A stretch of 43,880 bases of DNA from Pseudorhodobacter antarcticus (GTDB taxonomy: Bacteria > Pseudomonadota > Alphaproteobacteria > Rhodobacterales > Rhodobacteraceae). The stretch's first letter is position 1, and each line of letters starts with the position of its first letter. Made by a program: the position numbers and the translations under genes. Where the stretch lies: positions 1-43,880 of the forward strand of contig CAMAYO010000014.1 of assembly GCA_945862465.1 (NCBI GenBank), given 5' to 3'. Below, in pieces: positions 8,437-42,251 of the stretch. Below the pieces are notes generated by a model. That model was not told the origin of the DNA. It was given only the letters and a program-made list of their open reading frames with translations, and did not search any database.

Positions 8437-8487
8437 CTTTTATCGCCCCCTGCGGTGCGCCTCTTCTGTCGCTGGGTCAAAGTGACC

Positions 8488-9084
8488 CTATTTCATGGTT
8501 TGAAGCGGTTCAGCGCCAAGATGCGCCGCCAAGTAATCGCGCGCCATGGCTGCCGCTGCAGCGCCATCAGGCGCACCTGGGCGCAGAACTTGGCGCAGAT
8601 ACAGCCCGTCGATCAGCGCGCCCAAGCCTTCGGCAATCGTTTCCGCCCGGGCACCAGCCAAGGGGCGCAAGCCCACCAGCAGGTTCGATTTCAGCCGTCG
8701 CTGATAGACCGCGACCAGACGCTTGGCTTGCGGCACAGTTTGCGCCAAAACCCAAAAGTTCAGCCAAGCCCCCACTGCCTCGCGCCGGAAATTGGCGGGA
8801 CTGAAGGAGGCGACCACAATCGCCTCAATCCGATCCATCGGGGTTTGCGCCACGCTTAAAGCCCCGCGCACTTCAGCCCCGTAAATCGTCATCACGTGGC
8901 GCATTGCGGCCAAAAACATGTCTTCTTTGGACCCAAAGTAGTGATGCGCCAAAGCGCTGGACATCCCCGCGCGCTTGGCAATCTGGCTGACCGTCACGTC
9001 TAAAGAGCCCGTCCGCCCGATCTCAGAGATCGTGGCTTTGACGAGCGCGTCTTTGCGTATAGGCTCCATTCCAAGCTTCGGCAT
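8488..9084 (-). CDS. betI: TetR-family choline-responsive repressor BetI
   Basis: A transcriptional repressor of choline/betaine genes that is relieved by choline. The start at 9084 gives MPKLGMEPIRKDAL, the standard BetI N-terminus, with AAGGA six bases upstream, and a protein of 198 residues. The helix-turn-helix lies at about residues 25-55 (VTVSQIAKRAGMSSALAHHYFGSK). The ligand domain contains AVGAWLNFWVLAQ and the C-terminal GLGALIDGLYLR segment. It is the first gene of a betI-betA unit divergent from choXWV. A perfect palindrome 57 bases upstream of its start is the likely operator. Confidence 0.93.
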   Translation of the reverse strand: MPKLGMEPIRKDALVKATISEIGRTGSLDVTVSQIAKRAGMSSALAHHYFGSKEDMFLAAMRHVMTIYGAEVRGALSVAQTPMDRIEAIVVASFSPANFRREAVGAWLNFWVLAQTVPQAKRLVAVYQRRLKSNLLVGLRPLAGARAETIAEGLGALIDGLYLRQVLRPGAPDGAAAAAMARDYLAAHLGAEPLQTMK

Positions 9085-9114
9085 GCTGTCCTTAAGGGGG
9101 GTTGTGAAAAACAC

Positions 9115-9144
9115 TTGCTTTTTGCAGCTAGCTTGAAGTTTATT
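9115..9144 (+). promoter_or_regulatory. Possible choX promoter
   Basis: TTGCTT (9115-9120) and TTTATT (9139-9144) are spaced 18 bases apart and point toward choX. The right element overlaps the palindromic candidate BetI operator, as expected for repression by occlusion. The -10 match is weak, so this is a proposal, not a firm call. Confidence 0.35.
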
Positions 9145-9155
9145 GACTCGTCAAT
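9142..9155. promoter_or_regulatory. Candidate BetI operator
   Basis: ATTGAC-TC-GTCAAT is a perfect palindrome of two 6-base arms. It lies in the 93-base gap between betI and choX, 57 bases from the betI start and 22 bases from the choX start. BetI sites described in other bacteria have TTGA...TCAA-type arms, which this fits. One site could control both directions. Confidence 0.6.
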
Positions 9156-9177
9156 CAACAAAAAACGGGGAGCCCCT

Positions 9178-10113
9178 ATGACCTTCAAATCCACACTGCT
9201 TGCCACCGCCGTGGCGTTTGCCTTCACGGGCTCTGCCTTTGCGGCGGGCTGCGATAAGGTAACTTTTTCTGACGTTGGCTGGACGGACATCACCGCCACC
9301 ACCGCCGTATCCAGCCTGATTTTGCAAGCCTTGGGCTATGAAACCGCAACGCAAGTTCTGTCCGTTCCCGTGACCTATGAAGGACTCGCCTCGGGCGATG
9401 TCGATGTGTTCTTGGGCAACTGGATGCCCACGATGGCGTCAAACATCCAACCCTATCTGGATGCCAAAACCGTCGAATCGCTGACCGCCAACTTGGAAGG
9501 GGCCAAATACACCTTGGCCACCAACGAAGCGGGCGCTGCCCTTGGGATCAAAGATTTTGCCGATATCGCAGCCCATGCCGCCGATCTGGATGGCAAGATT
9601 TACGGGATCGAAGCTGGCAATGACGGCAATAAGCTGATCCTCGACATGATCGAAGCCAACGCCTTTGGCCTGAAAGATGCAGGCGTCGAGCTGATCGAAA
9701 GCTCGGAACAAGGGATGCTGGCCCAAGTCGCCAAAGAAGATCAGGCACAAAAAGCAATCATCTTCTTGGGCTGGGAACCCCACCCGATGAACGCCAATTT
9801 CAAGATGACCTATCTGACGGGCGGCGATGATTTCTTTGGCCCCAATCTGGGCGGTGCAACTGTCTACACCAACACCCGCGCGGGCTATGCGACCGAATGC
9901 CCCAACACGGGTAAGTTCCTGTCCAACCTCGTCTTCTCGCTTGCAATGGAGAATGAGATCATGGGCGCAATCTTGAACGACGGCACCGATCCGGCTGTTG
10001 CGGCCAAAACTTGGCTGGCGGCAAACCCCGATGCCATCACGCCTTGGCTGGCCGGCGTCACCACCAAAGACGGTGGCGACGCGGTGGCTGCTGTGACAGC
10101 AGCGCTGAAGTAA
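9178..10113 (+). CDS. choX: Choline ABC transporter, periplasmic binding protein
   Basis: The product captures choline in the periplasm for ChoWV. The ATG at 9178 gives a clean signal peptide (MTFKSTLLATAVAFAFTGSAFA, cut before AGCDK) and a total of 311 residues; longer readings from 9115 run into the control region. Aromatic residues that could form the choline cage are visible in VGWTDITATTA, FLGNWMPTM and LGWEPHPMN, as in Sinorhizobium ChoX. It is first in choXWV and divergent from betI. A strong intrinsic terminator follows the gene, which should make binding protein more abundant than the membrane and ATPase subunits. Confidence 0.93.
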   Translation: MTFKSTLLATAVAFAFTGSAFAAGCDKVTFSDVGWTDITATTAVSSLILQALGYETATQVLSVPVTYEGLASGDVDVFLGNWMPTMASNIQPYLDAKTVESLTANLEGAKYTLATNEAGAALGIKDFADIAAHAADLDGKIYGIEAGNDGNKLILDMIEANAFGLKDAGVELIESSEQGMLAQVAKEDQAQKAIIFLGWEPHPMNANFKMTYLTGGDDFFGPNLGGATVYTNTRAGYATECPNTGKFLSNLVFSLAMENEIMGAILNDGTDPAVAAKTWLAANPDAITPWLAGVTTKDGGDAVAAVTAALK

Positions 10114-10120
10114 GACTTGA

Positions 10121-10150
10121 AGGCCCCAGATCAATTCTGGGGCCTTTTTC
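10121..10150 (+). terminator. Intrinsic terminator between choX and choW
   Basis: AGGCCCCAGA (10121-10130) pairs perfectly with TCTGGGGCCT (10136-10145) across a five-base loop and runs into TTTTTC. It lies seven bases after the choX stop and 19 bases before the choW start. No separate choW promoter fits in the remaining gap, so it probably acts as a partial terminator that lowers choWV transcription relative to choX. Confidence 0.85.
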
Positions 10151-10168
10151 TATAAAGGAACGTGCGGC

Positions 10169-11002
10169 ATGGATTGGCTGACAGGCACAAAGATCCCCGT
10201 GGGATCAGGGGCGAATGTGGTTTTCGTCTGGATGAAAACCCATCTGACGGCTGTCTTTGATGCCATTTCGTGGGCACTAGAGGGGCTGATTGCGGGCTTC
10301 TTGTGGCTGCTACAAGCGCCCAACCCCTTGGTTTTGATTGCGGTTTTCGTAGCTCTTGCTTGGGTCTTGCAGCGCAATTGGAAGATCTGTGTCGGCGTGG
10401 CGCTGGGGTTCTTGTTTGTGGTGAACCAAGGCTATTGGAAAGAAACCACCGAAAGCCTGACGCTTATCTTGTCATCTTGCGCTGTCTGCATGGCGATTGG
10501 TGTGCCCGTTGGCATCGCCTGCGCGCACAATGCGCGCCTCAACGCCGCTATTTCGCCTGTGTTAGACCTGATGCAAACCCTGCCGACTTTTGTTTACCTG
10601 ATCCCCGCCATCATCTTTTTCGGCATCGGCATGGTGCCCGGCCTGATTGCGACAGTGATTTTCGTTCTGCCCGCCCCGATCCGCCTGACCGAACTGGGCG
10701 TCGCATCAACCCCCACAGCCCTTTTGGAAGCGGCCACCGCCTTTGGTGCCACCCCGCGCCAACGCCTGTGGAAGGTGGAACTGCCTTGGGCCTTGCCGCA
10801 GATTATGGTGGGGTTGAACCAAACCATCATGCTGTCGCTGTCGATGGTGGTGATCGCCTCAATGGTCGGGGCCAATGGCTTGGGCGTGCCGGTCATGCGC
10901 GCGCTCGCGTCAGTCAACGCCGCCAAGGGATTTGAATCGGGCTTTGTCATCGTCGTGGTGGCCATAGCGCTGCGCAGCATCTTTCAACGCGAGGTGAAAT
11001 GA
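10169..11002 (+). CDS. choW: Choline ABC transporter, permease
   Basis: The membrane channel subunit of the ChoXWV importer has 277 residues. Several hydrophobic helices are visible, starting with AISWALEGLIAGFLWLLQ and LVLIAVFVALAWVL. The binding-protein-dependent transport signature is visible around EAATAFGATPRQRLWKVELP, the loop that contacts the ATPase. AAAGGAA lies eight bases before the ATG. The gene begins just after the choX terminator and its stop overlaps the choV start (ATGA), so choW and choV are translationally coupled. Confidence 0.93.
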   Translation: MDWLTGTKIPVGSGANVVFVWMKTHLTAVFDAISWALEGLIAGFLWLLQAPNPLVLIAVFVALAWVLQRNWKICVGVALGFLFVVNQGYWKETTESLTLILSSCAVCMAIGVPVGIACAHNARLNAAISPVLDLMQTLPTFVYLIPAIIFFGIGMVPGLIATVIFVLPAPIRLTELGVASTPTALLEAATAFGATPRQRLWKVELPWALPQIMVGLNQTIMLSLSMVVIASMVGANGLGVPVMRALASVNAAKGFESGFVIVVVAIALRSIFQREVK

Positions 11003-12027
11003 TGACGGCCGTCATCTTTGATCGCGTTTCGATTATCTTTGGCGACAAGCCCGAACTAGCCCTGCCCTTGATGGATCAAGGGATGAGCCGGGCAGATATT
11101 CAAACCCAAACCGGCCAGATTTTGGGTGTGCATGACTGTTCCCTGACCGTGGCCGAGGGCGAGATTCTGGTTTTGATGGGCCTGTCAGGCTCGGGCAAAT
11201 CGACGCTTCTGCGCGGGGTGAATGCGCTGAACCCCGTGGTACGGGGCGAGGTGTTGGTGTCAGACGGCTCCAGGATGGTATCTGTCACCAAGGCCGATGC
11301 CCCCACCCTGCGCCATCTGCGGCTGAACCGCATTGCCATGGTTTTTCAACAGTTCGGCCTACTGCCCTGGCGCAGCGTGCGCGAGAATGTGGGGCTGGGG
11401 CTGGAACTGGCGGGCCTTGATGCCGCAAGCCGCAAGCCGCGCGTGGATGAGCAACTGGCGCTGGTGAACCTGTCGCAATGGGCTGACAGGAAGGTGGGCG
11501 AATTGTCGGGCGGAATGCAACAGCGCGTGGGTCTGGCCCGCGCCTTTGCCACGCAAGCGCCGATTTTGCTGATGGATGAACCCTTCTCGGCTCTTGACCC
11601 CTTGATCCGCGCGCGTTTGCAAGATGAACTCTTAGACCTGCAAGCCAAGCTGAAACGCACGATCATTTTCGTCAGCCATGATCTGGACGAGGCGTTTAAG
11701 CTCGGCAATCGCATCGCCTTGATGGAAGGTGGGCGCATCGTGCAAATCGGTACGGCCCGTGAGATCATCGCCAACCCAGTCAGCGACTATGTGGCAGATT
11801 TTGTGGCCCACATGAACCCTTTGGGCGTTCTGACGGCGCAAGATGTGATGGAGACGGGGGCCACAGACGCCTCTGCCAGTGTGGATGCTCAACTGCCCGT
11901 CAAACAGGTGATGGCGCTGCTGGCCAAAGGGGCTGCGGAACTCGCCGTGACGCAAAATGGCGCGCGCATCGGTGTTGTTCGGGCGGCGTCCCTGATGGGA
12001 CGCCTGATCGACCCGCGCAAAGGGTAA
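10999..12027 (+). CDS. choV: Choline ABC transporter, ATP-binding protein
   Basis: The ATPase that drives the choline importer has 342 residues, as in ProV/OpuAA-type subunits. Walker A is GLSGSGKST, the Q-loop is VFQQFGLLPW, the signature is LSGGMQQRVGLARAFA, Walker B is LLMDEPFSALDPL and the H-loop is VSHDLDEAF. A C-terminal extension of about 80 residues (from MNPLGVLTAQDVMETG) may be a degenerate regulatory domain of the CBS type. The ATGATG start overlaps the choW stop. The gene ends three bases before the convergent topA stop codon. Confidence 0.94.
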   Translation: MMTAVIFDRVSIIFGDKPELALPLMDQGMSRADIQTQTGQILGVHDCSLTVAEGEILVLMGLSGSGKSTLLRGVNALNPVVRGEVLVSDGSRMVSVTKADAPTLRHLRLNRIAMVFQQFGLLPWRSVRENVGLGLELAGLDAASRKPRVDEQLALVNLSQWADRKVGELSGGMQQRVGLARAFATQAPILLMDEPFSALDPLIRARLQDELLDLQAKLKRTIIFVSHDLDEAFKLGNRIALMEGGRIVQIGTAREIIANPVSDYVADFVAHMNPLGVLTAQDVMETGATDASASVDAQLPVKQVMALLAKGAAELAVTQNGARIGVVRAASLMGRLIDPRKG

Positions 12028-27352: not shown

Positions 27353-27442
27353 GTCATTCTCCTGCTGGCGCGGATGCGCTGTAATGAAGCCAGTGTAGAC
27401 CTTTGCGAGGCGCGGGGGAATTCCCGATTTTCCTACGTAAAA

Positions 27443-28384
27443 TCAGGTCTGCGCGGCCAGATCGGGGTGAAACACCAAGGCTGCAGCCCCAATCAGGCTA
27501 GAGGTGGTGCCCAACTGGGCGCAGTGCAGCGCCACCCCATCAAAGCCGGGTTTCAGGTGGGAGGCTAGGGTTTCTGTGATCACGGGGGCCAGTTGGTCAA
27601 AGGCTTGGCTCATGCCGCCGCCCAAAATGACCGCTTCTGGCGACAGGATGTGGATCAGGCTGGCGCAGCCGATGCCCAAAAGGGTGGCTTCATCGTGCAC
27701 AAGGCTTTTTGCCAAGCTGTCGCCCAAGGCTGCCGCCTCGTAAACGGCACGGGCGTCGAGGGCGCGGCCGTGCAGAGAGGAGGCGGGGGTTTGGGCGGCA
27801 CGCGCGGTGGCACGGTCGGCAAGGGCCGGACCTGCGCCCCAATCTTCAAAGCAAGGCATCGTTGCACCGGCATAGCGCGGCCAATCGCGGTGAAAGAACA
27901 TATGCCCCAGATGCCCAGCCATACCGCGCCGCCCACGCAGTGGCCTGCCATCGGCAATGATGCCGCCGCCGATCCCGGTGGAGATGGTGATATAGACAAA
28001 GTCGCTATAGGCGCGCCCTGCCCCATGGCAAAGTTCGGCCACAGCACCCGCGATGCCGTCATTTTCCACCTGAACCGACATGGCGAGTTTTTGCGAAAGC
28101 ATATCGCGCAGGGGGAAATCCTCAAACCCTTTTAGGGTTTGCACGCCAAAGACCCGCCCCGTGAGTGTATCCAACGGGCCGGGGGCGCAGATGGCGGCCC
28201 CCTTAACCTGCGTGCCGAAAAGCACCTGCGCGCTAAGCTGGGCAATCTGGTCCAGCACAACCGCCGGCCCCGCCATGGCTTGAGTGGCGATGGCTTGTTG
28301 CGTGACGATCTGGCCCAATGCGTCAACCAGACCCACCCTGATCTGGGTGCCGCCAAGGTCGATTGCCAGCGCCAGATCGGCCAT
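27443..28384 (-). CDS. ROK-family sugar kinase
   Basis: An ATP-dependent sugar kinase of the ROK family (glucokinase, allose kinase, N-acetylmannosamine kinase group). The start at 28384 overlaps the stop of the upstream epimerase gene as TAATG and gives 313 residues. The phosphate loop is AIDLGGTQIRVGL (7-19), the catalytic aspartate is in VENDGIAGAVAE (D109), and STGIGGGII and AGHLGHM follow. The usual zinc motif CxCGxxGC after GHLGHM is absent; residues 162-185 contain a single cysteine. It is the last gene of the seven-gene carbohydrate operon, and the substrate is not evident. Lack of the zinc site does not exclude kinase activity. Confidence 0.85.
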   Translation of the reverse strand: MADLALAIDLGGTQIRVGLVDALGQIVTQQAIATQAMAGPAVVLDQIAQLSAQVLFGTQVKGAAICAPGPLDTLTGRVFGVQTLKGFEDFPLRDMLSQKLAMSVQVENDGIAGAVAELCHGAGRAYSDFVYITISTGIGGGIIADGRPLRGRRGMAGHLGHMFFHRDWPRYAGATMPCFEDWGAGPALADRATARAAQTPASSLHGRALDARAVYEAAALGDSLAKSLVHDEATLLGIGCASLIHILSPEAVILGGGMSQAFDQLAPVITETLASHLKPGFDGVALHCAQLGTTSSLIGAAALVFHPDLAAQT

Positions 28385-29082
28385 TACAGAGCTGCCAGCC
28401 AAGCCATGCGCGCGGCAAGGTCGGGCGCGTTGAAGGCAAGCGATCCCAGAACCACTGTCTGCGCACCTTCGGCCCGCATACGAGGCACAGTGTGTTCGCG
28501 AATGCCACCGTCTGCCGCCAAGATCACCTGCGGGGCTTTGGCATCCAGCAAGGCGCGGGCTTCAGCAAGGCGCAGATATGTCGTCTCATCAGGTTGCACC
28601 CCTTTGATGCCGATGGGGGTGGATACCAGCGTCAGCATCGCCACGTCGGCGAGCCAAGCTTCGGCCTGTTCCACCGGCGTTTCCAGCTGCAGCACCAGCC
28701 CTGCCTTTAGCCCCAAAGCCGCGATGATGGCAAAGGCTTCGCGCAGAATGGCAGGATCGGTTTCGGCGTGGATCGAGATTAAATCCGCCCCTGCTTCGGC
28801 GAACTGTTCGATCTGCGACAGCAAGACCGAACCCGTTACCATCAAATGCACGTGCATCGGCTTGGCTGTGGCCTTGCGCAGGTTGGCGATCTGATCGGGA
28901 AAGAACAGCAAGGCGGCGGTGAAATGGCCATCCGACACATCAATATGCAGCATATCAACATGCGGTTCTACCCGCGCCAAATCGGCGCGCAAAGCGCCCA
29001 AATCGGCGCTCCACACCGAAAATTCGGCGATGAGGCGGGTTTTGGGCAGGCTTTGCAGCCAATTTGCGTCAGGTCGTGCCAT
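28384..29082 (-). CDS. Ribulose-phosphate 3-epimerase-like protein
   Basis: A TIM-barrel epimerase of the Rpe/AlsE family with 232 residues. The start at 29082 has AAAGG upstream. Metal and catalytic positions are mostly kept: HIDVSDGHF (H46, D48, D51), HVHLMV (H79) and AADGGIR (D191). The first strand reads FSVWSADLG instead of SILSADF, and the phosphate-side loop reads STPIGIKGVQP instead of VNPGFGGQ. It is therefore not a standard housekeeping Rpe, and an AlsE-like enzyme acting on another ketose phosphate is plausible. It lies 38 bases after the transaldolase gene and is coupled to the kinase gene by a TAATG junction. Confidence 0.82.
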   Translation of the reverse strand: MARPDANWLQSLPKTRLIAEFSVWSADLGALRADLARVEPHVDMLHIDVSDGHFTAALLFFPDQIANLRKATAKPMHVHLMVTGSVLLSQIEQFAEAGADLISIHAETDPAILREAFAIIAALGLKAGLVLQLETPVEQAEAWLADVAMLTLVSTPIGIKGVQPDETTYLRLAEARALLDAKAPQVILAADGGIREHTVPRMRAEGAQTVVLGSLAFNAPDLAARMAWLAAL

Positions 29083-29120
29083 GGGTGGTGCCTTTGGTCT
29101 GCGCCCCAAGGGGCCTAGGG

Positions 29121-30056
29121 TTACAGTTTCGCTGCGACCAAAGCTTCTAGCTTCATCGCGTCGATGTGGAAGTTGCGAATGCCTTCGGCCAGCTTTTCGG
29201 TGGCCATGGCGTCTTCGTTATGGGCCCAACGGAAATCAGCTTCTGAGGTCGGCGCTGCCTTGCCCGTTACCGCCCCTGCGGTCAGCTTGCGCGAAAGCGC
29301 CCCTTCGTCGGCGGCAAGCTTTGCGATCAAGTCGGGAGAGATCGTCAGGCGGTCGCAGCCGGCCAGCGCTTCAATCTGGCCTGGGTTGCGAAAAGACGCG
29401 CCCATCACCACGGTGGCGATGCCGTGCGATTTGTAATGGTCATAAATGCGGCGCACCGACAGAACGCCGGGGTCTTCCTCGGCCGTGTAGGTCTGGCCCG
29501 TGGCTTTGGAAAACCAATCCGTGATCCGGCCCACGAAGGGCGAGATTAAGAACACTCCCGCATCCGCACAGGCCTTGGCTTGCGCCATGGAAAACAACAG
29601 GGTCAAGTTGCATTGGATGCCTTCGCGTTCCAGAACTCGGGCGGCTTGGATGCCTTCCCATGTGGCGGCGAGTTTGATCAGGATGCGGTCCGCGCCCACA
29701 TCCAGCTTGGCATAAGCGTCAATTAAAGCGCGGGCTTTGGCGATTGAGGCGTCTTTGTCAAACGACAGGCGGGCGTCGACTTCGGTGGACACTCGTCCCG
29801 GCACGATGGCGGCCAATTCTGCGCCCAAGCCCACGGTCAGGTCTTGCACAATCGCGGCGACTGCGTTGCTTTTGCCTTTCATACGCGCCACTGTTTGGGT
29901 GAATTTGTCCTGCATCGCGGGGCTTTGCATGGCTTTTAGCACCAGCGAGGGGTTTGTTGTGCAGTCTTGCGGGGCCAAACGGCGCACAGCCTCTAGGTCG
30001 CCGGTATCGGCCACAACAACAGTCATGGCGTTGAGTTGGTCAAGTTTGCTGGTCAT
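29121..30056 (-). CDS. tal: Transaldolase (TalB type)
   Basis: The enzyme transfers a dihydroxyacetone unit between sugar phosphates in the non-oxidative pentose phosphate pathway. The start at 30056 (MTSKLDQLNAMTVVVADTG) has AAAGGA eight bases upstream and gives 311 residues, as for TalB; the longer open frame upstream lies inside the regulator gene. Motifs are QDCTTNPSLVLKAMQ, STEVDARLSFD, the Schiff-base lysine in RILIKLAATWEGIQAA (K128) and PFVGRITDWF. The start overlaps the stop of the ROK regulator as ATGA. Its place within a sugar operon suggests that the pathway's product enters at the sedoheptulose/fructose phosphate level; that is inference. Confidence 0.93.
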   Translation of the reverse strand: MTSKLDQLNAMTVVVADTGDLEAVRRLAPQDCTTNPSLVLKAMQSPAMQDKFTQTVARMKGKSNAVAAIVQDLTVGLGAELAAIVPGRVSTEVDARLSFDKDASIAKARALIDAYAKLDVGADRILIKLAATWEGIQAARVLEREGIQCNLTLLFSMAQAKACADAGVFLISPFVGRITDWFSKATGQTYTAEEDPGVLSVRRIYDHYKSHGIATVVMGASFRNPGQIEALAGCDRLTISPDLIAKLAADEGALSRKLTAGAVTGKAAPTSEADFRWAHNEDAMATEKLAEGIRNFHIDAMKLEALVAAKL

Positions 30057-31276
30057 GAAGTGGTCCTTTGGCGAAGTGCGCGGGAAGCGGGGTTGGCCCT
30101 GTTTGGCACGACAGGCGCGGTTGGGAAAGGGGTTGCTGAGGGGCTTTTGCCCAAGTCGGGCAAGGCAAAGATGCGCGCGCGCAGGCGGGCAGCAGCCCCG
30201 ATGGCAGCCCCTTCGCCGCCATAGCGCGCCAGATGCAGACTGGGGGCGGCGTGGCCTTGCAGCATCAGCGCGGACAAGCGCTGCGTGACGGCATCTGCCA
30301 CAGCGGGGTAAAGGACTGACAAAGGCCCGCCCAACACGATGCGGGAGGGGTCTAGAAGGTGGGTGGCATTGGCAAGTCCTATGGCCAATGCCTCGGCCCA
30401 CAGGTCAAGGGCGGCAAGGGTTTCAGGCGTGTTGGCTGTGGCCAGCACGTCTGCCACACCTTGCGCAACCGACCAACCGGGGCGCATGGCGGCAGGAAAA
30501 CCTGCGGCCCCTGCCATGGTTTCCAAAGCTCCCGATTTGCCGTGAACCGAGACAATCATATGCCCCAGTTCGCCCGCAAACCCATGCGCGCCGCTGATCA
30601 TGCGGCCTTCATCCAGATAGGCTGACCCCACCCCTTCGGCCAATAGCACCATCAGCAGGCTGCTGGGTTCTAGATCGGCCGCACGCTCGGCGCTGGCAAA
30701 GGCGAAGGCGTCGTTGCAGACATCGATTTGCCAAGTGGCGGGGGCAGCATCCTGCAGCGCTTCTTGCAGGGCAAAGTTCCGCCAGCCCAAGAGCGGCGCG
30801 TTGACCACTTGGCCATGCCGCCCGACCAAACCCGGAACGGCCACGCCAAGACCCGCAAGGCGGGCAGGATCGGTATGTGCAGCAAGACTTTGCGCTGCCG
30901 AAAGGATGCGCGGCACCATGGCTTTGGGGTCGTGAAAGGTGTCTCCCACGGGGTCAACCTTTCGCGCGATCACGCGCATCGTCAGGTCCAACAGCACGGC
31001 CGAGACGGCTCGGGTGTCAATTTCAACCCCCATAAACAGCGCCCCTTGCGGGTTAAGGCGCAGCGCCACGCCGGGGCGGCCAATGCGCTCTGGCGTGGGG
31101 GTGGGCGTTTCCAGAACCAACCCTGCCGTTGCCAATTCGGCCACAGCGTGGCCGATGGTGGCGCGGGTTACGCCCAGGGCGCGCGCCATATCAGCGCGGC
31201 TGAGGCTTTGCCCACCTTGTAACAGGCGCAGGCACTGCAGAGAGATCATTCGGCGGAGAAAGCGAGGGGTGTTCAC
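30053..31276 (-). CDS. ROK-family transcriptional regulator (NagC/XylR type)
   Basis: A sugar-responsive repressor or activator of 407 residues. A winged helix-turn-helix lies at about residues 10-60 (LSRADMARALGVTRATIGHAVAEL), followed by a ROK sugar-binding domain (VEIDTRAVSAVLLDL, CNDAFAFASAE, GELGHMIVSVHG). The zinc motif CxCGxxGC expected after GELGHM is missing. The start is GTG at 31276, overlapping the hydrolase stop as GTGA. It is embedded in the middle of the operon it probably controls, so it would be autoregulated. The inverted repeat at 33981-34009 is the best candidate operator. Its C-terminal 30 residues are Pro/Ala/Arg-rich and extend past the ROK fold. Confidence 0.88.
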   Translation of the reverse strand: MNTPRFLRRMISLQCLRLLQGGQSLSRADMARALGVTRATIGHAVAELATAGLVLETPTPTPERIGRPGVALRLNPQGALFMGVEIDTRAVSAVLLDLTMRVIARKVDPVGDTFHDPKAMVPRILSAAQSLAAHTDPARLAGLGVAVPGLVGRHGQVVNAPLLGWRNFALQEALQDAAPATWQIDVCNDAFAFASAERAADLEPSSLLMVLLAEGVGSAYLDEGRMISGAHGFAGELGHMIVSVHGKSGALETMAGAAGFPAAMRPGWSVAQGVADVLATANTPETLAALDLWAEALAIGLANATHLLDPSRIVLGGPLSVLYPAVADAVTQRLSALMLQGHAAPSLHLARYGGEGAAIGAAARLRARIFALPDLGKSPSATPFPTAPVVPNRANPASRALRQRTTS

Positions 31277-32070
31277 GTCTGCGCCGTTAGAAACTGCGCG
31301 AGGGCGGTGCGAAAGGCCGCCACGTGGGCCAATTTGTCACGGCCTTTGGCGGGCAGGTCGGTCAGGATAGCATGGGGGATCAGGGCTGCCAGGTCTGTGC
31401 CATAAGCTGCGGGGTGGACATAGTCTTGGCCCGTGGTCAGCACCAAAGTGGGCAAGGTTAAGGTTGCGATTTGCGCGCGCGTTGCCCCCGGCCCATCAAG
31501 CGGTATGCGCTGCAAGAGGGCCAGCGTCGTTTCGGGGCGTGGCCGCGTGAAAAACGTGACCAGCGAGGCCGCATTGTCAGGCGAGGCAATGCTCAGGTCG
31601 CGGTAGATTTTTCCCGATTGAAACAGCACCCGCCCGATCTCGCCATGGCGGGCCAGTTGGCGGGCAACCTCGACATAAGATTGCATCGTTTCTGGGGCGG
31701 GGTGATCGACCCATGCGGGCCGCGCCAAAATCAGCGCCTTGACGCGCAGCGGATGCGTCACCGCCAGCCGCAAGGAAATGGCAGCCCCAAGCGAAATACC
31801 ACCCATCGCTACACTTTGCAGACCCAGATGGTCCATCAGCGCCAAAACATCTTGGCCAAACTGCGCGATAGACAAGCGGGCCAGATCGCCAAGGTCTGAC
31901 CCGTCATGGCCGCGACACATCAGGGTGATGCGGGTGAAGCCTTCTGGGAAGACCTCGGCAGGTTGGGCGGCTGTGGCACCTAAGCCGTGCTGCCAAAAGA
32001 CAGCGGGGCCTTGGCCTGCGATGTCGTAGGCAAGGCGGCAGCCGTCAGGGGTTTGGAACGTTGCGGTCAT
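31273..32070 (-). CDS. Alpha/beta hydrolase
   Basis: An alpha/beta-fold hydrolase of 265 residues. The start at 32070 overlaps the stop of the isomerase gene as ATGA. The nucleophile elbow is GGISLG (S93), the acid is in TTGQD (D216) and the histidine is in DKLAHVAAF (H249); the oxyanion segment is WQHGLGATAA. It resembles lactonase-like members such as 3-oxoadipate enol-lactonase. In an operon that also encodes a sugar dehydrogenase, hydrolysis of a sugar lactone or ester is a reasonable guess. The substrate is unproven. Confidence 0.85.
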   Translation of the reverse strand: MTATFQTPDGCRLAYDIAGQGPAVFWQHGLGATAAQPAEVFPEGFTRITLMCRGHDGSDLGDLARLSIAQFGQDVLALMDHLGLQSVAMGGISLGAAISLRLAVTHPLRVKALILARPAWVDHPAPETMQSYVEVARQLARHGEIGRVLFQSGKIYRDLSIASPDNAASLVTFFTRPRPETTLALLQRIPLDGPGATRAQIATLTLPTLVLTTGQDYVHPAAYGTDLAALIPHAILTDLPAKGRDKLAHVAAFRTALAQFLTAQT

Positions 32071-32888
32071 CTGTGGCACAGGTCTTGCAGCACGCGGGCG
32101 GCTTGGGGGGCTTGGGCGACATCAAAGCCATGGCCGATCAGCGCGCCGTGATAGCCCGCAAGGCGCAGACTTGCCGCGAAGGCGGGCAGGTCGATGATGC
32201 CATCGCCAGGGGCCACCACGCGGCCTGTGGCGTCGTGGTCTTTGGCATGGGCCAGCAGCACGTCAGCGCCCAATAGGTCAAAGGCTTGATCCAGAATGGC
32301 TGGCTGATGCACCGCCTGTTCGGGGGCAATCAGGTTGGCGGCATCCAGAACGATACCCAAATGCGGGGCTTGCATCTGGTCTAAGATCCGGCGGGCGGCG
32401 GGCGCATCGCAAATGACATTGGCAGGCTCAGGCTCGATCCCCAAATACAGGCCATAGTGGGCAGCGCGGTCCAAAGCGTGGGACAGTTCAGCCGCCATAT
32501 CTGCCCAAGCAGCGGCCGAGGTGTTTTGCGCATGCGCCGCCCACATATTGCCCGCATCGCGCGAACCGGTGCACAGCGTGACAATCGGCGCGCCTAGCGT
32601 TTGGGCCGCTTGCAGCACCAGTTCAAACCGTCCGCGCATCTGAATGCGATAGGCTGAATCTGGGTGCGCCATGTTCCAAGTGCCCGACAGGGCGCTGATC
32701 ACAACCCCCGCCGCAGCCGCCTGATCGCGCACGGCCTCCAAACCCGTGGGGGCGGTTTCGGGGATGGGCGGCAGACCCAGATTGGAAAGGTTGAACTGCA
32801 CCGCGCCAAAGCCATCGGCCTTTACAGCAGCAAAGGTCGCTTCAGCCGTCGTCAGCGGATAGGTGCGTGAGAAGATGGCGGGGGTCAT
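32067..32888 (-). CDS. Sugar phosphate isomerase/epimerase-type TIM-barrel protein
   Basis: A xylose-isomerase-like TIM-barrel protein (AP endonuclease 2 superfamily) with 273 residues. Probable metal ligands are E152 or E154 in LGIEPEPAN, D182 in GIVLDAANLI and H214 in LAHAKDHDATG. The final strand reads GYHGALIGHGFD, where family members usually have a glutamate ligand (LxLE), so the fourth ligand may be histidine (H253) or absent. Both ends overlap neighbours by four bases (ATGA), with the dehydrogenase gene upstream and the hydrolase gene downstream. Members interconvert keto and aldo sugars or epimerise them; the substrate is unknown. Confidence 0.85.
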   Translation of the reverse strand: MTPAIFSRTYPLTTAEATFAAVKADGFGAVQFNLSNLGLPPIPETAPTGLEAVRDQAAAAGVVISALSGTWNMAHPDSAYRIQMRGRFELVLQAAQTLGAPIVTLCTGSRDAGNMWAAHAQNTSAAAWADMAAELSHALDRAAHYGLYLGIEPEPANVICDAPAARRILDQMQAPHLGIVLDAANLIAPEQAVHQPAILDQAFDLLGADVLLAHAKDHDATGRVVAPGDGIIDLPAFAASLRLAGYHGALIGHGFDVAQAPQAARVLQDLCHR

Positions 32889-33964
32889 ACCGGCCCCGTG
32901 GCATCGGCCAGCTTCACCGGCTGCCCCGTTTCGGCTGATCGCATCACCGCCACCATAGCCCGCACAGACTCCAGCCCATCCACGATAGAAGCCCCCGTCA
33001 TCGGCGCGCCCTTCAAGATCACATCCCCAAAACCTTCCAACTGGCGGCGGTAAAAATGCCCATCTGCGCCGAGCACACGGAGGGTCGAGGCGTCAGCTTC
33101 GCGGAAAATATCCACCTCGGATGCGCGGAAATACCACGGGTTCAGGATATTCGCTTTGATCGACCCGTTCTGGCCGTAGATCTGAAAGCCTTCGTGCCAA
33201 TCCATCCGCACGGCCAAGGTCAGGTCCAAATGGCCCAAGGCGCGGTTTTCAAATTCGACATCAATGAACCACGACATGGCACCGTATTTTTCACGGTGGC
33301 GGGCGTGAACCTCGACAATTGGGCCCGACAGGTAGCGGGCAAGGTCCAAAAGATGGCAGCCGTGGGCCAGCATATTGTAGCGGCGCAGGTTGGCTTTGGG
33401 GTTTTCGCTGGGCTTGATCGCCCGCGACCCTGTGCGCGGCATGGGTTGGATCGCATCGGTGTTGGTATAGCGGGCAGTGGAATCGCAATACCACGCCTTA
33501 AGCGCCAAAATCTCGCCCATCTCATCGGTGAGAAAATCTTTGGCCGATTGGATGCCCGGATCAAAGCGCAGCATATGACCCACCTGCAAGGTCTTGCCCG
33601 TCGCATCGACAACCTTTTGCAGTTCCAGCACTTCTTCCACCGACAGGCCGATGGGCTTTTCACAAAACACATGCTTGCCCGCCTGCAAAGCGCGGATGGC
33701 CGCGGGCACGTGGAAAGCGTCCGAGGTGGCGATGATCACGGCTTCCACCATGTCGTCGGCCAGCATCGCGTCATAGTCCAGATAGATGGCGGCGGCGTCA
33801 TAGAAAGCGCCAAAGCGGTTGGCCAAGCCTTCATCCGCATCGCAAACAGCGCGCAGGTCGGTGTTGCGGGCCTTTTGCACCGATTCCAGATGGCCAAATT
33901 GTGAGATGGGGCCACAGCCCAAGATCCCCACCCCAAGCAGGCGCTGTTCTTTTTTGATGGCCAT
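32885..33964 (-). CDS. Gfo/Idh/MocA-family oxidoreductase
   Basis: An NAD(P)-dependent sugar or polyol dehydrogenase of the glucose-fructose oxidoreductase/inositol dehydrogenase family, 359 residues. The Rossmann motif is GILGCGPISQFGH (13-25), the catalytic lysine segment is CEKPIG (101-106), and the metal-free active-site motif HGCHLLD (201-207) follows. A C-terminal beta-sheet domain includes VEFENRALGHLDLTLAV. It is the first gene of the seven-gene operon, with AGGAGGA before the ATG, and a promoter with an inverted repeat lies directly upstream. There is no signal peptide, so it acts in the cytoplasm. Confidence 0.88.
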   Translation of the reverse strand: MAIKKEQRLLGVGILGCGPISQFGHLESVQKARNTDLRAVCDADEGLANRFGAFYDAAAIYLDYDAMLADDMVEAVIIATSDAFHVPAAIRALQAGKHVFCEKPIGLSVEEVLELQKVVDATGKTLQVGHMLRFDPGIQSAKDFLTDEMGEILALKAWYCDSTARYTNTDAIQPMPRTGSRAIKPSENPKANLRRYNMLAHGCHLLDLARYLSGPIVEVHARHREKYGAMSWFIDVEFENRALGHLDLTLAVRMDWHEGFQIYGQNGSIKANILNPWYFRASEVDIFREADASTLRVLGADGHFYRRQLEGFGDVILKGAPMTGASIVDGLESVRAMVAVMRSAETGQPVKLADATGPV

Positions 33965-33980
33965 GATGTCCTCCTATGAT

Positions 33981-34009
33981 GGAATTTGTTTACGAATGAT
34001 ACGAATTCC
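33981..34009. promoter_or_regulatory. Inverted repeat, candidate operator of the carbohydrate operon
   Basis: A 29-base imperfect palindrome with perfect outer arms GGAATT/AATTCC (33981-33986, 34004-34009) and further matches inside (GGAATT-N-GT-N-T on both strands). It also contains the direct repeat TACGAAT (33991-33997 and 34000-34006). It covers the spacer and -10 of the operon promoter. A GTTTAC/ATACG-type core is compatible with ROK-regulator sites, and the operon encodes a ROK regulator. Confidence 0.55.
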
Positions 34010-34015
34010 CGTCAA
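33987..34015 (-). promoter_or_regulatory. Candidate promoter of the carbohydrate operon
   Basis: Read on the minus strand, TTGACG (34015-34010) and TAAACA (33992-33987) are separated by 17 bases and sit 22 bases before the Gfo/Idh/MocA start. The -35 is strong and the -10 is moderate. It is overlapped by the inverted repeat at 33981-34009. Confidence 0.5.
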
Positions 34016-34080
34016 GGCTTTGCCGCTTGCGAAATCACCGCCCGGGTAGCATTATTTATACCTTTAGAAAGGCTTTCATG

Positions 34081-35448
34081 ATGCCCCTAACCTGTTTCAC
34101 CTCTTACGACATTCGCGGCCGCTTGGGCGTTGATCTTGATGCCACCATCGCCTTTCGCATCGGGCGCGGCTTTGCGCGGGCCTTGGGGGCCAAGGTGGTG
34201 GTGGTGGGACGCGACTGCAGGGCTTCGTCTTTGGAACTGGCCGAAGCGGTGACGGCGGCGTTGCGGGCTGAAGGCGTGAAGGTGCTGGATCTGGGGCTTT
34301 CGGGCACAGAAGAGATGTATCACGCCACCTCGCATTTCAGGGCCGATGGCGGGATTGTGGTCACAGCCTCGCACAATCCGATCGATTACAACGGGATGAA
34401 GATGGTGCGCAAAGGGTCTGCGCCGTTGGATGGGGCAACGGGTCTTTCAGCCATCCGGGCCTTGGCAGAGGCGGATGATTTTGGGCCAACGAAAGGCGGC
34501 GGTGAGCGGGTCAATGTGGCGGTGGAAGCGCGGGCGGCCTATGTTGAAACGGTGCTTTCCTTTGTCGATGTCGCAGCACTTCGCCCGCTGACAGTTCTGG
34601 TCAATGCGGGCAATGGCACGGCGGGGCCTACCTTTGACGCACTGGCCGAAGGATTGGCGCAGCGCGGCGCGCCCTTACGGTTCGTGCGGATGCACCACGC
34701 GCCGGATGGCAGCTTTCCCAACGGCATTCCCAATCCTTTGCTGATGGAAAACCGCCCCGTGACAGCGGCGGCGGTTCTGGCCAATGGGGCCGATCTGGGC
34801 GTGGCATGGGATGGCGACTTTGACCGCTGTTTTTTCTTTGACCATACGGGCGCTTTTGTTGACGGTGAATACATCGTGGGTCTGCTCGCTGCGGTCTTCT
34901 TGGCCAAAGAACATGGCGCGCGGATTGTTCACGACCCGCGCGTGGTCTGGAATACGCAAGACATCGTGGCAGCCCAAGGCGGTATTGCCGTGCAGTCGCG
35001 CACGGGACACGCCTTTGTCAAACAGGTGATGCGCGACACGGGCGCTGTGTATGGTGGCGAAATGTCAGCCCACCATTATTTCCGCGACTTCGCTTATTGC
35101 GATTCTGGCATGATCCCCTTTTTGCTGATCTGCGAACTCATCAGCCGCCAAGGCGCTTTGGCGGAATTGGTGGCAGGTCGCAAAGCGGCGTTTCCCTCTT
35201 CGGGAGAGATCAACTTTCGTCTGCCCAACGCCGCAGCATCGCTGTCGAGGGTGCGCGAGATGTTTGAAACCTTGGCCGAAACAGTCGATGAGACCGACGG
35301 GTTAAGCCTGTCTTTTGGCGATTGGCGGATGAACCTGCGCTCATCGAATACCGAGCCCTTGGTGCGGCTGAATATTGAATCGCGGGGCAATGCAGACCTA
35401 TTGCCCCAGAAACTGGCACTGATTTCCAAAGTGCTGCAGGAAGGATGA
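34081..35448 (+). CDS. manB: Phosphomannomutase/phosphoglucomutase
   Basis: A phosphohexomutase interconverting mannose-6-P and mannose-1-P, feeding GDP-mannose and surface polysaccharides. The phosphoserine loop is VVTASHNPIDYNGMK, the metal loop is AWDGDFDRCFFFD, the sugar loop is GGEMSAHHYFRDFAY and the phosphate loop is RSSNTEPLVRLNIES. Two adjacent ATGs (34078, 34081) are possible; the second has AAAGG eight bases upstream and gives 455 residues. It is divergent from the carbohydrate operon and shares its 116-base control region. PgmM-type dual specificity is possible. Confidence 0.92.
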   Translation: MPLTCFTSYDIRGRLGVDLDATIAFRIGRGFARALGAKVVVVGRDCRASSLELAEAVTAALRAEGVKVLDLGLSGTEEMYHATSHFRADGGIVVTASHNPIDYNGMKMVRKGSAPLDGATGLSAIRALAEADDFGPTKGGGERVNVAVEARAAYVETVLSFVDVAALRPLTVLVNAGNGTAGPTFDALAEGLAQRGAPLRFVRMHHAPDGSFPNGIPNPLLMENRPVTAAAVLANGADLGVAWDGDFDRCFFFDHTGAFVDGEYIVGLLAAVFLAKEHGARIVHDPRVVWNTQDIVAAQGGIAVQSRTGHAFVKQVMRDTGAVYGGEMSAHHYFRDFAYCDSGMIPFLLICELISRQGALAELVAGRKAAFPSSGEINFRLPNAAASLSRVREMFETLAETVDETDGLSLSFGDWRMNLRSSNTEPLVRLNIESRGNADLLPQKLALISKVLQEG

Positions 35449-39320: not shown

Positions 39321-40592
39321 ATGGCTGATCTTTTGCTTGGGCAAGTTTTGTCCTTTGACGGCGACCCTTTTGTACTGGGGCCAGAGGCGGCACGGGTCAA
39401 CGAGGCCGTCTTGGTCGACAGTGGTCGCATCAGCGCCGTGGGCAACGCCAAGACACTGCGCGCAGCCCATCCGCAGGCGCGGGTGACTGACTATGGCAAA
39501 GCGCTGATCTCGGCCGGATTTGTCGACGCCCATGTGCATTACCCGCAAACGGCGATCATCGCCTCTTGGGGCAAGCGGTTGATTGACTGGTTAAACCAAT
39601 ACACCTTCCCCGAGGAAATGCGCTTTGCCGACCCCGCCTATGCCGCCGAAGTCGCCACCCGCTACTTCGATCTAGCCTTAGCCCACGGCACGACGTCGAT
39701 GTGTTCTTATGCCACGATCCATCCCGCCTCGGTCGATGCCTTCTTTGACCAAGCTCAGGCGCGGGGATTGCGGGCCTTTGCGGGCAAGACCTGCATGGAT
39801 AGGAATGCACCGGAAGGCCTGCGCGATACGGCGCAAAGCGCTTATGACGACAGCAAGGCGCTTTTGACCAAGTGGCACGGGAAAGACCGCTTGTCTTACG
39901 TCATCACCCCGCGCTTTTCGCCAACCTCTACGCCTGAACAACTCGCCGCCATGGGTGCTTTGTGGCGCGAACATCCCGATTGCCTTATGCAAACCCACCT
40001 GTCCGAACAGACAGACGAGATTGCTTGGGTCAAAGACCTGTTCCCTCAGTCGCGCGATTATCTTGACACCTACGAAGCTCAAGGCTTGCTGCGCCAAGGA
40101 GCGGTTTACGGTCACGCCATCCACCTGACCGCCCGCGAAAAGGCGCGGCTGGCCGAGGCGGGGGCGAGTGTGGTGCATTGCCCGACATCAAACACCTTCA
40201 TCGGGTCGGGTCTGTTTGACATGGGGCTGACGCAAAGCCTGCGCGTGGGGTTGGCGACCGATACAGGCGGCGGATCATCGTTTTCCATGCTGCGCACGAT
40301 GGCTGCGGCTTACGAGGTCGCCCAGTTGCGTGGCCAAGCGCTGCATCCTGCCCAGTTGTGGTGGCTTGCAACCCAAGGATCCGCCCGCGCCTTGCGGGCA
40401 GAGCATCAGATCGGCAACATCGCCGTGGGGCACGAGGCGGATTTGGTCGTGGTCAACCTTGCCTCGACCCCCGTGATTGAACAGGCGACACGGCGGGCCG
40501 AGGATATTTGGCAAGCCCTTTTCCCCACGATCATGCTGGGGGATGACCGCGCCATTCAGGCGGTTTGGATCTCAGGAAGCCTCGTCCTCTAG
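39321..40592 (+). CDS. guaD: Guanine deaminase
   Basis: A zinc amidohydrolase that deaminates guanine to xanthine. The 423 residues include the metal site GFVDAHVHYPQTA, the LNQYTFPEE segment typical of GuaD, MQTHLSEQTDEI, GHAIHLTAREKARLAEAG, HCPTSNTFIGSGLFD and the second-site aspartate in GLATDTGGGSSFSML. GAAGG lies eight bases before the ATG. It is convergent with the RraB-like gene, with a 21-base overlap at the 3' ends. A second purine deaminase gene lies just beyond. Confidence 0.93.
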   Translation: MADLLLGQVLSFDGDPFVLGPEAARVNEAVLVDSGRISAVGNAKTLRAAHPQARVTDYGKALISAGFVDAHVHYPQTAIIASWGKRLIDWLNQYTFPEEMRFADPAYAAEVATRYFDLALAHGTTSMCSYATIHPASVDAFFDQAQARGLRAFAGKTCMDRNAPEGLRDTAQSAYDDSKALLTKWHGKDRLSYVITPRFSPTSTPEQLAAMGALWREHPDCLMQTHLSEQTDEIAWVKDLFPQSRDYLDTYEAQGLLRQGAVYGHAIHLTAREKARLAEAGASVVHCPTSNTFIGSGLFDMGLTQSLRVGLATDTGGGSSFSMLRTMAAAYEVAQLRGQALHPAQLWWLATQGSARALRAEHQIGNIAVGHEADLVVVNLASTPVIEQATRRAEDIWQALFPTIMLGDDRAIQAVWISGSLVL

Positions 40593-40916: not shown

Positions 40917-42251
40917 TCACGCCATCAATCGGCGGGCCAGATGGTTTTGGCGTTCAACCACGCGGGGCAGGTCAATGGTCAGCATATGTCCGTCGCCCAC
41001 CACTTGGCGGCCTTCGACAAACAGATCGCGCACGCGGGTGGGGCCTGCCAGCAAAAGTGCCGCCGGATCCCACGACCCAGCACTTTCCACGCCCGACACA
41101 TCCCAGACAGCCACATCGCCGCGCTTGCCCACTGCAAGCGAGCCGCAATCAGGGCGGCCCAGCACCTGAGCGCCGCCTATGGTGGCTATCTCTAACGCCT
41201 CGCGTGCGCTCATCGCATCGGCGCCAAGGGCCACACGCTGCAACAGCATGGTCTGGCGTGCCTCGGCCATCAGGTTGCCAGCGTCATTGCTGGCCGACCC
41301 GTCAACGCCAAGCCCCACCTTTACCCCTGCATCTCGCAAGGCACGCACGGGAGCGATACCTGACCCAAGCCTGCAATTGGAACAGGGGCAATGGGCAATA
41401 CCGGTTCGGGTGCGCGCAAAAAGGTCAATCTCTAGCGCATCCAGCTTGACGCAATGGGCGTGCCAGACGTCATCGCCCGTCCAGCCCAGATCTTGGGCGT
41501 ATTGCCCCGGACGGCAGCCAAATTTGGCCAAGGAATAGGCGATATCCTCGTCATTCTCGGCCAAATGGGTGTGCAGCATCACACCCTTGTCACGCGCCAA
41601 AAGGGCCGCGTTGCGCATCAGATCGCGGCTTACGGAAAAGGGTGAACAAGGCGCAAGACCTACGCGCAGCATCGACCCTTCGGCGCTGTCATGGTGGGCA
41701 TCGACCACGCGGATCATGTCCTCCAGAATGGCCGCTTCGCGCTCCACCAAACTATCCGGCGGCAGGCCACCGTCACTTTCGCCAATGCTCATAGCCCCCC
41801 GCGTGGGATGAAAGCGCAGGCCCACTTCGGATGCGGCAGCGATGGTGTCATCCAAGCGCGACCCATTGGGGAAGAGGTAGAGGTGATCTGACGTCAGTGT
41901 GCAACCCGACAGCGCCAGTTCCGCCAAGCCCACTTGGGTGGAGGTGAACATCTCTTCCGGTCCAAAGCGCTCCCAGATCGGATACAGCGTTTTCAGCCAA
42001 CCAAACAGCAGCGCATCCTGCCCGCCTGGCACAGCACGGGTCAGAGTTTGGTACAGATGATGGTGCGTGTTCACCAAGCCGGGGGTGACCACACAGCCCT
42101 TGGCCTGCACCACGCGGCCCGTGGTGGTTAGCCCATGCCCCACAGCGGCCACAACGCCACCGCGCAGCAAAACATCCGCGCCATGCAATTCGCGCCGCGC
42201 CGCATCCATCGTCAGGACGGTGTCGGCATTCTGGATCAGGATTTCAGACAT
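40917..42251 (-). CDS. 8-oxoguanine deaminase (amidohydrolase)
   Basis: A zinc-dependent amidohydrolase of 444 residues, closest in pattern to 8-oxoguanine deaminases of the AtzB/TrzN-like branch. Metal and active-site motifs are VTPGLVNTHHHLYQTLTR, TLTSDHLYLFP, MLHTHLAENDEDI, WHAHCVKLD, GIAHCPCSNCRLGSGIAPV and GLGVDGSASNDAG. It would convert 8-oxoguanine to urate, complementing the nearby guanine deaminase. Another aromatic deaminase or hydrolase of the same subgroup is possible. Confidence 0.88.
   Translation of the reverse strand: MSEILIQNADTVLTMDAARRELHGADVLLRGGVVAAVGHGLTTTGRVVQAKGCVVTPGLVNTHHHLYQTLTRAVPGGQDALLFGWLKTLYPIWERFGPEEMFTSTQVGLAELALSGCTLTSDHLYLFPNGSRLDDTIAAASEVGLRFHPTRGAMSIGESDGGLPPDSLVEREAAILEDMIRVVDAHHDSAEGSMLRVGLAPCSPFSVSRDLMRNAALLARDKGVMLHTHLAENDEDIAYSLAKFGCRPGQYAQDLGWTGDDVWHAHCVKLDALEIDLFARTRTGIAHCPCSNCRLGSGIAPVRALRDAGVKVGLGVDGSASNDAGNLMAEARQTMLLQRVALGADAMSAREALEIATIGGAQVLGRPDCGSLAVGKRGDVAVWDVSGVESAGSWDPAALLLAGPTRVRDLFVEGRQVVGDGHMLTIDLPRVVERQNHLARRLMA

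Follow-up and report, generated by a model that had tools for sequence, protein, structure and literature searches.

The operon analysed here occupies the minus strand of a 43,880-nucleotide stretch of DNA from Pseudorhodobacter antarcticus (contig CAMAYO010000014.1 of assembly GCA_945862465.1), called the window in the following. We found that five of its seven genes form a conserved accessory core, presumably catabolic, that several of the encoded enzymes have altered active sites and that a transaldolase, probably a captured housekeeping enzyme, joined the core in the window's lineage; the surroundings of the core in relatives provide a testable lead towards heptuloses. The five genes, a set found again in many alphaproteobacteria, code for a Gfo/Idh/MocA-family dehydrogenase (Gfo), a xylose-isomerase-like TIM-barrel protein (TIM), an alpha/beta-hydrolase-fold protein, a ribulose-phosphate-3-epimerase-like (Rpe-like) protein and a ROK-family sugar kinase. 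We read the operon as a catabolic feeder for a rare ketose, or for a sugar convertible into one, with heptuloses of the mannoheptulose or sedoheptulose type as the likeliest substrates and tagatose-type hexuloses as a close alternative, and put the probability of this reading at roughly 0.38.

Seven intact reading frames fill the minus strand from 33964 to 27443 (Table 1), and the families assigned to them are in line with Pfam and NCBIfam. In transcription order, the Gfo, TIM and hydrolase-fold genes are joined by ATGA, the hydrolase-fold and ROK regulator genes by GTGA and the regulator and transaldolase genes by ATGA, each an overlap of 4 bases. A 38-base gap follows between the transaldolase and Rpe-like genes, and the latter meets the kinase gene in TAATG with an overlap of 1 base. 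The tally is thus a 4-base overlap at four junctions, a 1-base overlap at one and a gap at one. The transaldolase gene starts at ATG 30056; the mechanically listed open reading frame, from GTG 30401, is longer than the gene. An earlier note on this DNA, made from its letters, had described these seven coupled genes with five overlapping junctions and a 38-base gap, which we confirm, and had called them a carbohydrate operon; both the operon-like layout and the carbohydrate role found support.

As had also been proposed there, the gene order was looked for in relatives. When the Rpe-like protein was used in a pattern scan of a genome collection covering 84,980 species, 43 loci came up; 34 were kept (L038-L071) and nine remote ones, with 31-37% identity, were left out (L072-L080). 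Adding 4 + 11 loci from whole-genome searches, nine of 107 plasmid records and the locus of genome G077 resulted in 59 tabulated loci, the window not counted, or 58 unique ones, since L035 and L053 are the same contig. All were retrieved via Rpe or Gfo, so that the informative part is the presence of the other genes alongside. The run Gfo-TIM-hydrolase-Rpe was contiguous in 50 of the 59 loci, with the ROK kinase gene directly next in 36. Five of the nine remaining loci belong to the window's clade, where the ROK regulator and transaldolase genes are inserted between the hydrolase-fold and Rpe-like genes (L040 is a fragment). Of the other four, L069 and L070 are fragments of contigs, and L118 and L151 are reduced loci. 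Relatives with 79-97% identity of the Rpe-like protein kept the window's gene order (L038 97%, L039 92%, L041 79%), and this conservation rules out a chance arrangement. The conserved unit is the five genes, and the seven that had been taken as a set were rejected as the functional unit: among the tabulated loci, the regulator and transaldolase stand within a full core only in the window's clade and are additions of its lineage.

Other ROK regulators adjoin the core in many further loci. The N-terminus of the window's regulator gave a MarR_2 match under the Pfam cut-off (23.9 of 27), and in L066, where its place between the genes for the hydrolase-fold protein and transaldolase is at around 8300-9000, the regulator gives only partial matches and may be decaying; the flanking genes match over their full length. 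In rhizobia, a second Gfo, TIM and alpha/beta hydrolase stand beside the core. They are not a recent duplicate of the core trio, as the second Gfo of L081 is 31% identical to the window's over 117 residues and the two TIM and the two hydrolase comparisons gave no match at E 1e-3. A phage origin was not backed either: a search of the phage collection at E 1e-20 with the Rpe-like protein, the sole operon protein tried, matched nothing.

The substrate lead comes from transporters. A CUT2 transporter lies near the core in 11 of the 58 unique loci; its binding protein is that of L071 or shares 72-93% identity with it. Transporter and core have the same orientation in ten of these eleven, at a distance of 2.3-6.8 kb to Gfo. 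The L071 binding protein matches PDB 5dkv (E = 1.3e-153), which we take to be Avi_5339 of Agrobacterium vitis with tagatose as its crystal ligand. A 2017 paper cites, as an unpublished observation, that Avi_5339 binds mannoheptulose. Its available text also describes a predicted locus for this sugar in a bin of Rhodobacteriaceae, comprising a COG3684 aldolase, kinases of the ROK and COG0529 types and a binding protein that is 83% similar to Avi_5339 (PMC5507952). The core-linked loci contain a COG3684-type aldolase as well as a ROK protein that carries a P-loop domain at its C-terminus; in the four genomes with the binding protein and no core, ROK and P-loop matches came in separate pieces. 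Across 394 family genomes, the core Gfo was present in 13 and a binding protein of the Avi_5339 type in 10; six genomes had the two together, seven had Gfo alone and four the binding protein alone (Fisher p = 6.8e-8, shared ancestry ignored). The two are adjacent in four of the six (G132, G623, G628, G655) and on different short contigs in two (G022, G728).

The kinase adds to this picture. Of the unique loci, 43 match the core ROK kinase, 11 have none despite at least 1 kb beyond Rpe, two reach a contig end and two are reduced. When the comparison was confined to loci flanked on one side by 6 kb or more, the CUT2 transporter was present in seven of nine without the ROK kinase versus four of 38 with it (p = 1.6e-4); two kinase-less loci, L036 (with a partial ROK match) and L149, fell outside this comparison. 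Of the seven kinase-less transporter loci, L082 has a ROK/P-loop fusion kinase, and the other six have a PfkB kinase that is TagK-like. This suggests that TagK-like or ROK/P-loop kinases stand in for the core kinase by non-orthologous replacement, in which case they would act on the same or a related ketose. TagK-like and GatZ-like genes adjoin the core in several loci; they score 278.1 of 420 and 475.9 of 568.8 bits on the curated models, under both cut-offs. A short-chain dehydrogenase (SDR) and a GMC oxidoreductase are found repeatedly by the core as well as by the binding protein where the core is missing (L051, L060, L181, L182; 67-78% identity to the query copies), possibly for the oxidation of a polyol or heptitol.

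The active sites of several core enzymes are altered. The Rpe-like protein stays below the curated cut-offs for Rpe (TIGR01163, 132.1 of 212.6 bits) and AlsE (NF007266, 101.2 of 271). H46, D48, H79 and D191, presumably the metal ligands including the two acid/base aspartates, are kept in every aligned row that has letters there (37 or 38 of 39). Housekeeping Rpe enzymes have a loop NPGFGGQ, seen in the eight copies listed of 25; in the core it is replaced by (G/S)T.IG.KG, which reads STPIGIKG in the window. A tree set 36 core Rpe apart from 25 housekeeping ones on a long branch, with a support of 0.28 after rerooting on which we do not rely. The ROK kinase has its catalytic Asp (ENDG motif) in 32 of 32 sequences, whereas the GE.GH motif has His for Glu in 26 and Glu in six; CxCGxxGC, which we take to be the zinc motif of ROK sugar kinases, is absent in the window, L033 and L041 and present in most other orthologues listed. 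On the AlsK model it scores 88.5 of 253.

In Gfo, Lys103 of the EKP motif and His204 are invariant (n = 33), and Ala200, four residues before His204, is found in 33 of 33. Its best phmmer match among solved structures is DgpA, which presumably oxidises C3 of glucosides. Inositol catabolism was rejected, with 129.1 of 355 bits for Gfo on IolG and 72.7 of 290 on IolE for the second TIM protein neighbouring the core in L160. E152, D182 and H214 of the TIM barrel are invariant. The fourth ligand position, as placed by a weak alignment, is His253 in 36 of 36, and the Glu-Asp-His-Glu set that we take to be the metal tetrad of ketose 3-epimerases of the DTE type is therefore not matched. The AlphaFold models have a mean pLDDT of 96.9 for TIM and 95.9 for the hydrolase-fold protein; the Foldseek neighbours are mixed for the former, including Art22, ketose 3-epimerases, YcjR, AtHYD and IolI, and generic for the latter, which leaves the chemistry of both proteins unfixed.

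In the hydrolase-fold protein, numbered from GTG 32079 (the start may be ATG 32070 instead), all 36 sequences share S96, D219, H222 and K245. A weak C-terminal match (6.2 bits) served to place the position of the usual catalytic His, which varies among the same 36 sequences; position 252, five residues on, is His in 14, the window included, and Tyr in 22. A shifted catalytic His (H252) is thus possible in some members. The score on 3-oxoadipate enol-lactonase (TIGR02427) is 70.9 against a cut-off of 255.85 bits, and this, together with the variable His position, weakens the label of a lactonase-like hydrolase given earlier. In view of these scores and altered sites, lactonase, 3-epimerase and Rpe are not to be taken as functions.

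The transaldolase, too, had served as a pointer to the substrate. The gene is indeed present and passes the curated TalAB cut-off (TIGR00874, 423.5 versus 396.2 bits), but it is the only PF00923 match in the window's genome (92% complete), which makes it weaker evidence than it appears and weakens it as a decisive clue. Among 149 family genomes, 11 pass the same cut-off, 137 have a much weaker match and one has none; the weaker matches mostly cover model residues 77-253, as expected of the smaller fructose-6-phosphate-aldolase type. Outside the window's clade, no locus but L044, from Celeribacter, shows a transaldolase in the fetched stretches. There it stands near the core inside an ABC transporter set, which suggests a real link to the pentose-phosphate pathway.

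Two reduced loci bear on the same gene. In L118 (G077, same genus; 5075-9703), the phosphomannomutase, Gfo, TIM and transaldolase genes are kept and the hydrolase-fold, ROK regulator, Rpe-like and kinase genes are gone; CUT2-type ABC matches (28-41%) lie just upstream. L151 (G673; 6682-11661) has a phosphomannomutase-Gfo-TIM run from which a GDP-mannose pyrophosphorylase-like gene diverges. Gfo and TIM seem able to work apart from the other core genes, perhaps near mannose metabolism in L151. On the simplest reading, the operon captured the cell's only transaldolase, which was retained as other genes were lost, with Gfo and TIM having a use of their own.

The gene set and its conservation, the operon-like layout, the enzyme families and the statistical and physical link to the Avi_5339-type module are observed, whereas every substrate and reaction given below is inferred. 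Gfo would oxidise a ring hydroxyl of the sugar with NAD(P), TIM would rearrange or epimerise the keto sugar and the hydrolase-fold enzyme would carry out one further, not assignable step. The ROK kinase would then phosphorylate the terminal hydroxyl, and the Rpe-like enzyme would act on the resulting ketose phosphate by inverting its C3. This would deliver a product such as sedoheptulose 7-phosphate, a substrate of transaldolase, to the non-oxidative pentose-phosphate pathway by way of that enzyme. Mannoheptulose is tagatose, and sedoheptulose is fructose, with one carbon added. A 4-epimerase of the tagatose-6-phosphate type could turn mannoheptulose 7-phosphate into sedoheptulose 7-phosphate, and a 3-epimerase could do so with allo-heptulose 7-phosphate. 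Heptulose stereochemistry would in this way tie together the transporter, the TagK- and GatZ-like genes, the Rpe-like enzyme, the kinase and the transaldolase. The earlier suggestion of a phosphorylated ketose entering the pentose-phosphate pool is plausible and supported. More tentatively, the five-gene core may be an undescribed pathway for seven-carbon ketoses, which would be recast to sedoheptulose 7-phosphate by an Rpe-family heptulose-7-phosphate 3-epimerase or oxidised to a 2,4-diketone and split to glycolate and ribulose by a hydrolase-fold enzyme whose active site is non-standard, the cell's only transaldolase having moved into the operon in the window's lineage.

Several observations weigh against the heptulose reading. 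The window's genome has no Avi_5339-type binding protein (best match 31%, E = 2.4e-18), its best match to a core-adjacent CUT1 binding protein is 36% identical and seven of the 13 core-positive family genomes lack the Avi_5339 type. The window operon has no tagatose-bisphosphate aldolase, the hydrolase-fold protein is explained by no assigned step and the transaldolase may sit in the operon only as the sole housekeeping copy. The association tests ignore shared ancestry, and the link to Avi_5339 takes 5dkv to be this protein, with tagatose as ligand. Furthermore, CUT1 importers occur in relatives directly upstream of Gfo (L052, L064, L157) or around the core (L145, L154, L160), and the cargo of this importer type is more often an oligosaccharide or a polyol. 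The core thus either handles sugars of more than one class or has had its transport system exchanged. The binding of mannoheptulose, finally, is an unpublished observation known at second hand (PMC5507952). The absence of a transporter had been remarked upon before: this holds for the window operon, which has no transporter gene within it, but not for the relatives, many of which have ABC importers beside or inside the run.

The nearest alternative, which we consider rather unlikely, is a hexulose route. A rare hexose or hexulose of the tagatose, sorbose or allulose type would yield a ketohexose; the ROK kinase would add a phosphate at C6, and an AlsE-like enzyme would epimerise C3 towards fructose 6-phosphate or tagatose 6-phosphate. 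Tagatose as the presumed ligand of 5dkv and the TagK- and GatZ-like genes beside the core would fit, although these genes and the Rpe-like protein all miss their curated cut-offs, and fructose 6-phosphate would not call for a transaldolase. Rhizobial Rpe-like copies are labelled D-allulose-6-phosphate 3-epimerase, in a plasmid record and, for pRL120033, in the available text of PMC5118466. The same paper, a transposon-sequencing study and the only one found for the Rhizobium locus tags, gives no substrate in that text; its table lists pRL120033 as NE, taken as no effect, in both conditions shown; in one of them, the housekeeping rpe (RL2598) is classed as growth-defective, GD (PMC5118466). Gene spacing suggests that pRL120033 is RL_RS33100, the core copy. 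If so, it did not cover for the housekeeping rpe there, which may merely reflect non-expression.

Carbon cleavage, the chief rival as to mechanism, would give several of the enzymes a task, yet appears unlikely. Gfo would oxidise C3 of a pyranose, ring opening would yield a 1,3-dicarbonyl and the hydrolase-fold enzyme would split it by retro-Claisen cleavage, a heptulose to glycolate and a ketopentose, a hexose to formate and a ketopentose. With a gluco- or manno-like configuration, the ketopentose would be D-ribulose, passed by the kinase to ribulose 5-phosphate, by the Rpe-like enzyme to xylulose 5-phosphate and on to transketolase and transaldolase. Gfo, the hydrolase-fold protein, the kinase, the Rpe-like enzyme and transaldolase would all be occupied, and the C3 oxidation presumed for DgpA agrees with it. 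HbpS/GlcG-like matches downstream of the core in L054, L065, L157 (11699-12124) and L160, and glcF, two more FAD-oxidase genes and malate synthase G nearby in L160 (12853-20675), lend it slight support. However, the HbpS-like matches occur in four of 59 loci and the glcF-type genes in one, in the opposite direction. The usual catalytic His is not conserved in the hydrolase-fold family, next to the housekeeping copy another Rpe would be superfluous, the core enzyme lacks the usual Rpe loop and the open literature searched held no precedent.

Glycoside cleavage by 3-keto chemistry, in which Gfo would oxidise a glycoside, TIM would eliminate the aglycone or hydrate a glycal and the remaining enzymes would handle the freed sugars, is improbable. 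In its favour, AtHYD is among the Foldseek neighbours of TIM, CUT1 importers adjoin the core in several relatives, and Gfo and TIM persist alone of the core in G077 and G673. According to the available text of PMC10628242, an Agrobacterium tumefaciens operon does work in this way; it encodes two enzymes annotated as sugar phosphate isomerase/epimerase along with a dehydrogenase for glycosides and another oxidoreductase. However, TIM is 16-17% identical to AtHYD, no closer than to other TIM-barrel neighbours, and neither the Rpe-like enzyme nor the link to a monosaccharide-type (CUT2) importer would be explained.

The distribution of the core is sparse. Its Rpe was found in five of 149 family genomes, counting the window's own, and its Gfo in 13 of 394, a number that takes in the window's own genome and two reduced loci. 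In the phylum, Gfo occurred in six of 398 genomes, all in the window's class; at E 1e-20, TIM was found in one of 385 class genomes, the window's own. In rhizobia the core is often plasmid-borne: 107 plasmid records, 95 of which are Rhizobium, contain the Rpe-like gene. They include pRL12 of a model strain, Rhizobium johnstonii 3841, where the core from Gfo to the ROK kinase is RL_RS33085-RL_RS33105. All nine records opened have the core, one of them without an adjacent ROK kinase. This makes the core genetically testable at once. Three contigs of metagenome-assembled genomes titled Acidobacteria carry the core or part of it (L062, L068, L069), which may reflect horizontal transfer or an error in binning; the core of L062 is followed by two genes for CLC-type chloride channels. 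In one alphaproteobacterial metagenome-assembled genome, a sulfatase gene with an SGSH-type C-terminus lies directly 5' of the core Gfo (L049, 5622-7205).

Around the operon, an alignment of the promoter-like stretch with five relatives showed, as read by eye, TTGA, part of a TTCGTA/TAAAC block and the purine-rich ribosome site in common. The hairpin-like sequence after the kinase gene is similar in L038, L039 and L066, and the phosphomannomutase adjoins Gfo also in these three, L118 and L151. Elsewhere in the window, two amidohydrolase-family genes lie on opposite strands (39321-40592, plus; 40917-42251, minus), and an MFS transporter (5026-6297), a GMC oxidoreductase (6781-8436) and an ABC permease/ATPase pair (10169-12027) are 15-22 kb off the operon.

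Table 1. Features of the operon and its borders, with positions in the window
Feature	Position	Strand	Details
Gfo/Idh/MocA-family dehydrogenase, first gene, core	32885..33964	-	359 aa; PF01408 87.8 bits, GFO_IDH_MocA_C
Xylose-isomerase-like TIM-barrel protein, core	32067..32888	-	273 aa; PF01261 109.5 bits
Alpha/beta-hydrolase-fold protein, core	31273..32070	-	PF00561 50.5 bits; alternative start GTG 32079
ROK-family transcription regulator	30053..31276	-	407 aa; GTG start; PF00480 109.7 bits
Canonical transaldolase TalAB	29121..30056	-	311 aa; TIGR00874 423.5 bits, cut-off 396.2
Ribulose-phosphate-3-epimerase-like protein, core	28384..29082	-	232 aa; PF00834 123.7 bits
ROK-family sugar kinase, core	27443..28384	-	313 aa; PF00480 180 bits
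Promoter-like stretch 5' of operon	33965..34026	-	TTGACG, repeated TTCGTA, GGAGGA ribosome site
Hairpin-like sequence directly 3' of kinase gene, candidate terminator	27400..27442	-	spotted by eye, unscored
Divergent CpsG-like phosphomannomutase/phosphoglucomutase, neighbour	34027..35448	+	PGM_PMM domains; pathway role uncertain

The earlier note knew of no described pathway with exactly this gene set, and we found none in the open literature either, subscription journals being mostly outside the search. The core may represent a way, so far undescribed, for rare sugars to reach central metabolism, and it offers several enzyme subfamilies with altered active-site residues. Free heptuloses occur in plants. 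Their bacterial catabolism seems little described in the searchable literature, apart from the prediction in the available text of PMC5507952.

Like the D-allose/D-allulose pathway, which uses the ROK kinase AlsK and the Rpe-like epimerase AlsE, the core pairs a ROK kinase with a 3-epimerase of the Rpe family, but both core enzymes score far under the AlsE and AlsK cut-offs, and we know of no Gfo, TIM or hydrolase-fold partner in that pathway. Catabolism of D-tagatose, galactitol and altritol in Agrobacterium uses TagK and a GatZ-type 4-epimerase; genes like these adjoin the core in relatives, although both are under curated cut-offs and neither is in the window operon. The 3-keto-glycoside operon of A. 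tumefaciens likewise combines a sugar dehydrogenase with TIM-barrel enzymes annotated as isomerase/epimerase, whereas a kinase, an Rpe-like or a hydrolase-fold protein is not reported for it in the available text (PMC10628242). The predicted mannoheptulose locus of Rhodobacteriaceae bin08 differs in that the available text of its description names no Gfo, TIM, hydrolase-fold or Rpe-like enzyme and in that the window's genome lacks its transporter (PMC5507952). Nevertheless, its type of binding protein lies beside the core in 11 of the 58 unique loci, and most of these eleven share with it the aldolase family, ROK-type kinases or both.

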